From positions 1-43,679 of the forward strand of contig DULL01000108.1 of assembly GCA_012840395.1 (NCBI GenBank): a stretch of DNA of 43,679 nt, given 5' to 3'. The notes under the pieces are model-generated. The model made no database searches. It was not told the origin of the DNA and saw only the letters and a list, made by a program, of their open reading frames with translations. Shown here piece after piece: positions 10,412-33,272 of the stretch. Origin of the DNA: Clostridiaceae bacterium (GTDB lineage: Bacteria > Bacillota > Clostridia > Acetivibrionales > DULL01). The first letter of the stretch is position 1; each line of letters begins with the position of its first letter. A program made the translations under genes and the position numbers.

Positions 10412-11698
10412 ATGAACATTAAGGAAAAGAATTATTCCAAAATAAATGAGACCATGTATTGCTATGACCATAAAAGCGGTCTAAAGGCTTTTGTAATACA
10501 GAAAAAAGGTTATTCAAAAAAATATGCAGCTTTTGCTACGAATTACGGGTCCATAAATAATCAGTTTATTGCTCCGGGGGATAAGGAAGTAACAATTGTA
10601 CCTGAAGGCATTGCTCATTTTCTTGAGCACAAGCTTTTTGAACAGAAAGATGGAAATATAATGGACAAATTCTCTGAGCTCGGTGCGAATCCTAATGCCT
10701 ATACTGGATTTAATCAAACAGTTTATCTGTTTTCATGCACCAATAATTTCAGTGAGAATTTTAAACTTTTGCTGGAGTTTGTGCAAAATCCGTATATTAC
10801 CGAAGAAAGCGTAGAAAAGGAAAAAGGTATAATTGCTCAGGAAATAAAGATGTACCAGGATGATCCGGGATGGAGATCTTTTTTTAACTTATTGGGAGCT
10901 TTTTATAGAGATAATCCTGTTAGGATAGATATTGCCGGAACAGTAGAAAGTATAAGCAATATAAACAGAGATATATTATATAAATGTTATAATACATTTT
11001 ATCATCCATCCAATATGATGATACTTGTTGTGGGAGATGTAGATCCAGGGGAAGTATTCGAACAAGTGGAAAAAAGCATAAAAATTACGGATTATGCTCC
11101 TGAAATTATCAGAATCTTTCCCGAAAGGGAGAAAAAATTAAATAAAAACTTCATTCAGCAAAATCTCCAGGTTTCAACTCCTTTGTTCCAAATGGGATTT
11201 ATGGACAACCCTGACATAACCGAGAATATTGATTATCTGAATAGGGAAGTGGCAGTGAAAATACTTTTGGAAATGATTATGGGAAAGAGTTCACAGTTAT
11301 ACGGAAATCTATATAATCAGGGATTAATAAATAATACGTTCGAGTTCGATTATTCATTGGAAAGGAATTATGCTTTCTCTGTTATTGGAGGAGAATCAAG
11401 CGATCCTCTGAAAGTGAAAAAGATTATTACACAGGAAATTGAAAACTTGCATAATAAGGGAATTGATGCCGGAAGTTTTGAAAGAGTAAAAAAATCCATG
11501 TATGGAAGATTTATTAGGCAGTTTAATTCAATAGAAAGAATTTCCCATGCTTTTATATCCATATATTTTAAGAATGTTAATATGTTTGACTATTTAGATG
11601 TATATGATAAAATATCATTTGAGTATGTTTCAAAGGTTTTCAAAGAACATTTTAACTTAGATAAATTTGCATTATCAGTGATAAATCCATTATCATAA
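10412..11698 (+). CDS. ymfH: M16-family zinc peptidase YmfH (active subunit)
   Basis: A 428-residue M16B metallopeptidase. The zinc motif HFLEH is intact (His69, Glu72, His73) and Glu144 in AQEIKMYQDDP is the likely third ligand. With the preceding inactive homologue it should form a heterodimer, as M16B pairs do. Homologues are labelled EF-P 5-aminopentanol modification associated; related pairs in bacilli have also been implicated in leader-peptide processing. The substrate here is unknown. The ATG follows GGAGG-like GGAAGGCGG. The gene ends 35 bases before a structured repeat (11733-11851). Confidence 0.87.
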   Translation: MNIKEKNYSKINETMYCYDHKSGLKAFVIQKKGYSKKYAAFATNYGSINNQFIAPGDKEVTIVPEGIAHFLEHKLFEQKDGNIMDKFSELGANPNAYTGFNQTVYLFSCTNNFSENFKLLLEFVQNPYITEESVEKEKGIIAQEIKMYQDDPGWRSFFNLLGAFYRDNPVRIDIAGTVESISNINRDILYKCYNTFYHPSNMMILVVGDVDPGEVFEQVEKSIKITDYAPEIIRIFPEREKKLNKNFIQQNLQVSTPLFQMGFMDNPDITENIDYLNREVAVKILLEMIMGKSSQLYGNLYNQGLINNTFEFDYSLERNYAFSVIGGESSDPLKVKKIITQEIENLHNKGIDAGSFERVKKSMYGRFIRQFNSIERISHAFISIYFKNVNMFDYLDVYDKISFEYVSKVFKEHFNLDKFALSVINPLS

Positions 11699-11732
11699 AA
11701 ACAGCAAGAGTACTCCCGCTTCAATAAGCAGG

Positions 11733-11851
11733 AGATGAATTGCTATAGCATAACTAGGGCAGGGACTACCCGATGTGAGGCTCGTGGACGCAGTAGATAA
11801 CTAGGCGTATGAAGCGAGAATCTTCACCTGTTATAAGGTGGAGAAGTTCAA
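11733..11851 (+). ncRNA. IS200/IS605 right-end / omega-RNA-like structured repeat, copy 1
   Basis: The core 11733-11788 matches 27587-27642 at roughly three of four positions, beginning with an identical 14-base block. Downstream come TGAAG (11810-11814) and an 8-bp hairpin CTTCACCT/AGGTGGAG (11822-11829, 11836-11843) followed by AAGTTCAA. A TGTGAGGC-CGTGGA core, then TGAAGC, a hairpin and a TCAA end is the layout I associate with right ends of Firmicutes IS200/IS605 elements, where the TnpB guide RNA (omega-RNA) scaffold lies. No tnpA or tnpB frame is nearby. If it is such an end, the guide would be the DNA just after 11851, in the lgt leader. The layout is seen; the identity is inference. 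Confidence 0.5.
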
Positions 11852-11875
11852 AAAATTAAAAGGTAGGGGATATAA

Positions 11876-13027
11876 ATGAATATAGTAGAATTTCCAGGAT
11901 TATGGGGTCTTCGTTTCTCAATAAATCCCGTTGCTTTTAATCTATTTGGCATACCTATATATTGGTATGGAATAATTATTGCCTCATCTATATTACTATC
12001 TATATTAATGGCAATGCACGACAGTAAGAAATTTGACATAGAATCTGACACAATAATTGATTTGGTTTTATATGCAGTTCCTGTGGCAATTGTAACTGCA
12101 AGATTATATTATGTTATATTTTCCTGGGATGATTTTAAAGATAATCTGATGGATATTTTCAATACCCGTCAGGGAGGACTGGCTATATACGGAGCAATAA
12201 TTGGAGCTGTTATTGTTGCTTATATATTTGCTAATAAAAGGAAAATCGGAGCTTTTAAGCTTTTTGATTTTGCTTCACCTTATCTGCCTTTCGCCCAAGC
12301 AATAGGAAGATGGGGGAATTTTATAAACCAAGAAGCTTTTGGGGCGAATACCAGCTTACCCTGGGGAATGACAGGGGATATAATTAAAAGAGAATTACAG
12401 TATTTACGGGATTCAGGATTAAATGTAACTCCTTCACAACCTGTGCATCCTACTTTTTTGTATGAATCGTTATGGAATTTGGGCGTTTTCTTTATCCTTT
12501 TATGGTACAGAAAACATAAGAAACGTGAAGGTGAAATATTTTTCCTTTATATGATTTTATATGGTATAGGCAGATTCTGGATAGAAGGATTAAGACTGGA
12601 TAGTCTCATGCTTGGAAATTTAAGGATATCCCAGGTCTTGGCTGCTTTATTTGCAATTGCTTTTGGAATAGCATTCCTGGTTAGAAGAAAGAAGATGGAA
12701 GAAGAAATGATTAACAATTTAGTGATCGGAGAAAGCAAATATGGTGCATTATTAAAAGAAATAAGAAATAGTGAGCAAAATGAAGATGAAATAACAGAAA
12801 ATGAAGCTGCAGAAGAAGACAATATAATAGAAGATAAAAATGAAGAAGATGAAATATTAAAGGATGAAGTTGGAGAAGAAAATAATAGTATTCTTTACGA
12901 TCAACAGGAAAATGTAAATGAAGAGATTTATCATGAGAATTCTGATGAAAATTCTGAAGGACGATTAGGAGAATTAACCAAGGATCATACGGAATTACCT
13001 GGCAATGTACAGGAAGATAATCTCTAA
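11876..13027 (+). CDS. lgt: Prolipoprotein diacylglyceryl transferase with acidic tail
   Basis: Lgt transfers a diacylglyceryl group from phosphatidylglycerol to the lipobox cysteine of prolipoproteins in the membrane. About seven membrane segments occupy residues 15-265, and the signature GRWGNFINQEAFG is intact; GGLAIYGAIIGA and the C-terminal GIGRFWIEGLR are also typical. Length is 383 residues against a usual 260-290: the last ~105 residues form a very acidic, Glu/Asp/Asn-rich tail with no membrane segment. GGTAGGGG precedes the ATG. The last bases of lgt lie close to the rodA start, indicating a two-gene unit. Confidence 0.95.
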   Translation: MNIVEFPGLWGLRFSINPVAFNLFGIPIYWYGIIIASSILLSILMAMHDSKKFDIESDTIIDLVLYAVPVAIVTARLYYVIFSWDDFKDNLMDIFNTRQGGLAIYGAIIGAVIVAYIFANKRKIGAFKLFDFASPYLPFAQAIGRWGNFINQEAFGANTSLPWGMTGDIIKRELQYLRDSGLNVTPSQPVHPTFLYESLWNLGVFFILLWYRKHKKREGEIFFLYMILYGIGRFWIEGLRLDSLMLGNLRISQVLAALFAIAFGIAFLVRRKKMEEEMINNLVIGESKYGALLKEIRNSEQNEDEITENEAAEEDNIIEDKNEEDEILKDEVGEENNSILYDQQENVNEEIYHENSDENSEGRLGELTKDHTELPGNVQEDNL

Positions 13028-27586: not shown

Positions 27587-27657
27587 AGATGAATTGCTAT
27601 ATAAAAACTAGAGTAGGAACTATCAGATGTGAGTCTTGTGTTTAAGATATGTCATTT
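27587..27657 (+). ncRNA. IS200/IS605 right-end / omega-RNA-like repeat, copy 2 (diverged)
   Basis: Bases 27587-27600 are identical to 11733-11746, and similarity continues to about 27642. As in copy 1, TGAAG follows (27657-27661) and then a hairpin, but the hairpin is a different sequence (27660-27687) and works as a terminator. Shared core with a changed but still paired 3' hairpin suggests selection on RNA structure or independent decay. No tnpB is present. Confidence 0.45.
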
Positions 27658-27658
27658 G

Positions 27659-27691
27659 AAGAACAGGTCATATGGACGCCTGTTCTTTTTT
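27659..27691 (+). terminator. Terminator after the sigma/anti-sigma operon
   Basis: AAGAACAGG (27659-27667) pairs with CCTGTTCTT (27679-27687), with T's continuing to 27691. It is a strong Rho-independent terminator. It occupies the same place as the 3' hairpin in the omega-RNA-like copy 1. Confidence 0.85.
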
Positions 27692-32923: not shown

Positions 32924-33272
32924 AAAAAATAAACTCCTCATCCTATGGGACGAGGAGCATTAATCCACGCGGTACCACCCAAATTGGTGTAAAACCCACT
33001 TTCCATGTACGGGAATTAATCCGATGTACTCGAAATAATCCGATACACTCTTCCTGTAACGGGGAAGTTCCGGCCAGGCCTACTAAAATGTTTCAGCCCG
33101 CAGCTCAAAGGGGAACTTCAGTTGTACTACCTCACCGGGCTCCCACCATCTCCGGCTCGCTTAAGAAGCTTATACACCTACTTTCCCTTTTCATTGCCAT
33201 TAAAATATTTTTAATAATCAGAAGCAGTTTTTTCTCTGCCTCTGTAAGAAGTGAAAAACTTATATTTCGTTG
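32924..33272 (-). promoter_or_regulatory. T-box riboswitch leader of aroF
   Basis: The minus strand carries the T-box sequence GGGTGGTACCGCG (32968-32980), then a terminator stem CTCCTCG/TGAGGAG (32934-32957) with a T-rich run at 32924-32933. The 5' part has the Stem I features AGCGAGCC and GGTGGGAGCC. T-boxes read uncharged tRNA and prevent termination when it binds. The T-box base pairing (UGGU with ACCA) means tRNA discriminator A, which excludes tRNA-Trp. In the specifier loop the sequence GAAGTTC offers GTT (Val) by strict position after GAA, or TTC (Phe), which fits aroF better. Confidence 0.93.

Follow-up and report, generated by a model that had tools for sequence, protein, structure and literature searches.

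How did what looks like the guide-RNA scaffold of a TnpB nuclease come to lie immediately upstream of lgt, and is it put to any use there? The locus is on contig DULL01000108.1 (assembly GCA_012840395.1) of a Clostridiaceae bacterium (class Clostridia, DULL01), which was analysed over positions 1 to 43,679; this whole stretch of 43,679 nucleotides is referred to as the window. The genome around it is a draft assembly in 119 contigs, from which a repeated autonomous element could escape. The original prediction described a lone IS200/IS605 right end at 11733 to 11851, usable by a TnpB acting in trans or domesticated as a regulator. We instead favour, with a probability of about 0.92, a non-autonomous IS200/IS605-derived element of the PATE (palindrome-associated transposable element) or MITE type, internally deleted with its scaffold intact and by now a passive relic.

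Aligning the three complete copies in the genome placed the element at 11694 to 11851 (158 bp), with TTAT immediately in front of it and TTCAA as its last letters; these boundaries derive from comparing copies, and the exact cleavage point is deduced. The predicted right edge therefore stands, but the start had been set too far downstream and the left-end hairpin was overlooked. The conserved core, TGAAG, 8-bp hairpin and TTCAA end are all present, at 11750 to 11851. The absence of tnpA and tnpB was also called correctly: the open reading frame listing holds no frame of 50 aa or more inside the element, and hence no transposase gene. The features are:

10412 to 11698, + strand: upstream peptidase M16 gene (Pfam M16, ORF), with its stop codon TAA at 11696 to 11698 inside the element
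11690 to 11693, + strand: TTAT in the flanking DNA, the target or left cleavage sequence and would-be TAM, found before the left end of each of the three full copies
11694 to 11744, + strand: left end, recognised by likeness to the left ends of Campylobacter IS605 and of loci L026 and L027
11703 to 11707 with 11740 to 11744: outer left-end pairing, AGCAA with TTGCT
11709 to 11712, + strand: AGTA, candidate left guide
11713 to 11734: left-end subterminal hairpin, arms 11713 to 11716 plus 11718 to 11721 against 11726 to 11729 plus 11731 to 11734
11750 to 11822, + strand: predicted TnpB omega-RNA scaffold core (R1 covariance model, family covariation)
11757 to 11762 with 11766 to 11771: scaffold stem 1, one C.A mismatch
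11781 to 11785 with 11814 to 11818: scaffold stem 2
11789 to 11791 with 11805 to 11807: scaffold stem 3
11810 to 11814: TGAAG in the scaffold, read from the sequence
11818 to 11851, + strand: right end, beginning with GAAT, in the order seen after tnpB in L022, L024, L026, L027 and L028
11822 to 11829 with 11836 to 11843: right-end hairpin, 8 pairs, one of them T.G
11847 to 11851: terminal TTCAA, read from the sequence
11852 to 11869, + strand: would-be omega-RNA guide, which is lgt leader DNA, positioned from IS200/IS605 TnpB biology
11876 to 13027, + strand: downstream lgt, intact (Pfam LGT, E 3e-79; ORF), starting 25 bp past the element
27587 to 27665, + strand: truncated second copy, comprising the tail of the left end and the 5' part (first half) of the scaffold (BLAST 81%; R1 23.3 bits, E 1.3e-4)

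The element occupies the intergenic gap between two genes of the same strand, and the ribosome-site region of lgt falls outside it. The M16 frame terminates at the element-internal TAA; the joined flanks would also yield TAA, one codon earlier, and the empty M16-lgt junction is predicted to read CCATTAT followed directly by AAAATTAAAAGG. Within the element, only about 6 bp separate the left end from the scaffold, two of whose three stems are fully paired. The 119 nt from 11733 to 11851 gave a folding z-score of −2.67 against shuffles, and a simple scan found no terminator on the + strand of the element. Elsewhere in the window, a T-box leader lies at 32943 to 33203 on the − strand (112.4 bits, above the Rfam gathering score).

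Rfam returned no guide-RNA family for the whole window at gathering score, and only chance matches at the element when 11600 to 11920 was searched at E up to 5. Nine sequences from outside this genome, eight adjoining tnpB and one (L035) without it, went into a covariance model, R1. It gave the element 75.6 bits (E 1e-19); the covariance-model check proposed with the prediction thus failed in Rfam and succeeded with R1. When viral and genome contigs were scanned by pattern, the right end of the window element, ACTAGGGTWGGAACKAYCCGATGTGAGGCTCGTGGAG...GATGAAGCGAGAATCTCCACC...GTTCAA, turned up no more than a few bases past the stop codon of tnpB sequences. The scaffold lies directly 3' of the tnpB stop codon in L022, L024, L026, L027, L028 and L034. 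TnpB is intact in L024 (379 aa, with OrfB_IS605 and Cas12f1-like_TNB domains), the gene is interrupted in L026 and L027, and in L034 a 59%-identical TnpB match extends up to the scaffold. Among genomes of the class Clostridia, L086, L089, L090, L093, L094 and L111 likewise have long tnpB matches with an R1 match at their 3' end. Overall, R1 found matches in 7 of 58 genomes of the order and 25 of 341 of the class, with TnpB homology preceding the scaffold in about half of the loci examined. One genome, G338, holds nine scaffold matches of identical score (L102 and eight more places); the copy examined adjoins the 3' part of a tnpB, and the set indicates that an element still bearing tnpB, or one partly deleted, has expanded recently in that genome.

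Covariation across 38 distinct sequences points the same way: 92.6% of cells were paired and the score was 0.482 (0.222 in shuffles), with 76 double-changed cells, a value reached by none of 500 shuffles, in an alignment that is fitted to R1 and leans towards that model's structure. When the alignment was slid as a control, just 36–52% of cells paired. Because tnpB genes elsewhere end at the same scaffold and R1 recognises the element, the prediction of an IS200/IS605 right end that carries a TnpB omega-RNA scaffold has support at the level of sequence. Both observations that would have spoken against it, namely that no tnpB-bearing element shares the 3' end or that covariance models reject it, are contradicted by these results.

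The element is by no means lone. BLAST found eight more occurrences of its DNA, from about 11694 on, across the genome (E 1e-29 to 2e-4), and R1 also recovers the sister copies. Two more complete copies lie on contigs C31 and C110. The three complete copies (158, 158 and 161 bp) have the same ends and are 77–82% identical in pairwise comparison; their flanks are 51–66% alike, in AT-rich DNA. All three begin after TTAT and finish in TTCAA at unrelated loci, with no target duplication seen. One lies between hpf-like and UvrD/PcrA-like helicase genes, and that on C110 (L003) separates acpP from fabF and has the orientation of the latter; we assign these gene names from our own reading of the sequences. 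The C110 copy (L003 1551 to 1658) carries an 8-bp scaffold insertion, apparently a short tandem duplication. Fragments of the element occur on C33, C18, C29, C106 and C90, and one in the window.

In IS200/IS605 elements, TnpA recognises the end hairpins together with short guide and cleavage sequences. The GAAT before the right hairpin and the terminal TCAA correspond to those of ISHp608, and a left guide of AGTA or AATA with TTAT is presumably compatible with the AAAG/TTAC pairing. The left end is 84–86% identical over 42–44 bp to those of Campylobacter plasmid IS605 elements; in the Campylobacter locus L019 it is followed by tnpA and tnpB-type genes. TTTAT stands in front of the left end both there and in the viral, tnpB-bearing L027. 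In the viral contigs L026 and L027, a left end of the window element's type stands ahead of tnpB, so that these two have both ends in common with it. In the plasmid and phage collections the Campylobacter left end was the only match, with none from phage. Viral contig L029 (13962 to 14125, − strand) shows the order left end, scaffold, right end of a PATE, so elements of the window type ride on phages too.

Intact Y1 transposases are present in the genome itself. Contig C41 (L010) bears an intact IS605 with tnpA and tnpB and a TTAC-type left end unlike that of the window element, and C100 (L042) bears a separate solo Y1 transposase of the C41 kind, again without the window element's left end. 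No TnpA with a matching left end emerged as the mobiliser: the intact IS605-type TnpA whose ends could be read, that of C41, sits in an element with a different left end. The C41 IS605 was considered as the parent of the window element and rejected: its right end (GAATCCCCTGACTTTAGTCACGGGGAGTGTCAA) differs as well, and R1 found no match at its locus.

The most economical history is therefore that of a PATE. An internal deletion would have taken out the coding region, leaving the left end and the scaffold-bearing right end; a Y1 transposase (TnpA) supplied in trans would then have moved this short form by way of its two end hairpins, inserting it 3' of TTAT between the M16 peptidase gene and lgt, where it now probably decays slowly as a passive relic. 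The element is most likely a fossil and not a working regulator.

The reading closest to the original prediction is an active guide RNA: an omega-RNA loaded by TnpB made elsewhere, which would cut the empty site and so retain the element by homing. The scaffold is complete, with most of its pairing kept in the window copy, its same-strand intergenic position makes read-through transcription plausible (the product could be an omega-RNA-like RNA guided by the lgt leader), and orphan scaffolds recur across several genomes. We nevertheless regard it as improbable. PF07282 found one intact TnpB in the genome, that of C41 with its foreign right end, and one fragment; the cognate TnpB query returned nothing from the draft assembly, an empty answer that weighs less than a match would, though the PF07282 query did find TnpB there. 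On contig C103 (L011), positions 1501 to 1815 comprise the decayed 3' part of a tnpB and, after it, a right-end hairpin that belongs to a further type. Stem 2 is mismatched in the sister copies C31 and C110. The relatives are no better provided: R1 finds seven scaffold matches in G002 (orphan loci L055, L061, L064, L067, L069, L071 and L073) and ten in G008 (orphan loci L056, L060, L063, L066, L068, L070, L072 and L074), neither with a clearly intact TnpB, all being broken or partial except in G002, where a 550-aa frame gave one match below threshold.

Still less probable is a domesticated regulator, that is, an RNA or hairpin kept under selection in the lgt leader. The short distance to lgt and the placing of the C110 copy in front of fabF would suit such a role, but the third full copy lies some 0.9 kb from the next downstream gene, the helicase. 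No nuclease-dead TnpB homologue was found, and a genome search allowing up to two mismatches gave no second occurrence of the 18 nt that follow the element, so the would-be guide matches only its own flank. Within-genome copies of G002 and G008 show no compensatory pairs in the stems. With no cognate TnpB, different ends on the C41 element, eroded stem 2 in the sister copies, no compensation in the relatives and a guide lacking a second match, neither suggestion of the original prediction, that the scaffold is at present used in trans or that it has been domesticated, finds any support. It is equally hard to credit a tnpB gene that simply decayed in situ: tnpB fragments do still precede the scaffold in some orphan G008 copies, but here the left end is fused to the scaffold in the same form at three loci, and the fused form itself must therefore have spread.

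PATEs as such are already known. Those of Haloquadratum walsbyi derive from IS605 elements and resemble the window element in lacking a transposase, in their IS605-like near-terminal palindromes, in their origin by core deletion and in their multiple copies; they are archaeal, and their description predates omega-RNA and assessed no guide-RNA scaffold (PMC3119063). A PATE-like sequence of Halanaerobium hydrogeniformans, reported in 2020, has the same layout, with a 28 nt left end with hairpin, no tnpA, the last 58 nt of tnpB and the whole 160-nt right end; it is a single copy with a tnpB remnant, whereas the window genome has several copies from which the tnpB coding sequence is entirely gone (PMC7290912). 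The tnpB-bearing IS200/IS605 elements of L024, L026 and L027 share with the window element the right-end hairpin, the terminal TTCAA and the scaffold, which lies just after their tnpB, and L026 and L027 the left-end hairpin in addition; unlike such elements and autonomous ones, it has neither tnpA nor tnpB. What it adds is a PATE whose TnpB omega-RNA scaffold is complete.

ISDra2 is an example from the literature of an IS200/IS605 element with an omega-RNA. TnpB is described as processing the mRNA that encodes it into omega-RNA, and a role in maintaining the transposon is attributed to it (PMC10278001). In the library searched, which is incomplete, we found no publication on point that brings MITEs or non-autonomous elements together with the TnpB guide RNA. 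Scaffold-keeping PATEs might conceivably be guide-RNA parasites: when an autonomous relative enters the cell, they would use its TnpB to cut empty sites and thereby stay in place or spread. We think this unlikely; if true, it would explain why the scaffold is kept in complete copies. Three G008 copies have both ends, and none of the G008 copies has both ends without the core, though the numbers are small. The apparent retention across several lineages is partly ascertainment, since surveys with R1 favour scaffold-bearing copies.

Orphan scaffolds thus occur in the window genome and in at least two relatives, none of which has a clearly intact matching TnpB. Repeated scaffold retention in several lineages deserves attention, with that caveat of ascertainment. 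A complete TnpB guide-RNA scaffold can spread separately from its nuclease, and both counts of omega-RNAs and predictions of guides acting in trans must tell such PATEs from functional loci.
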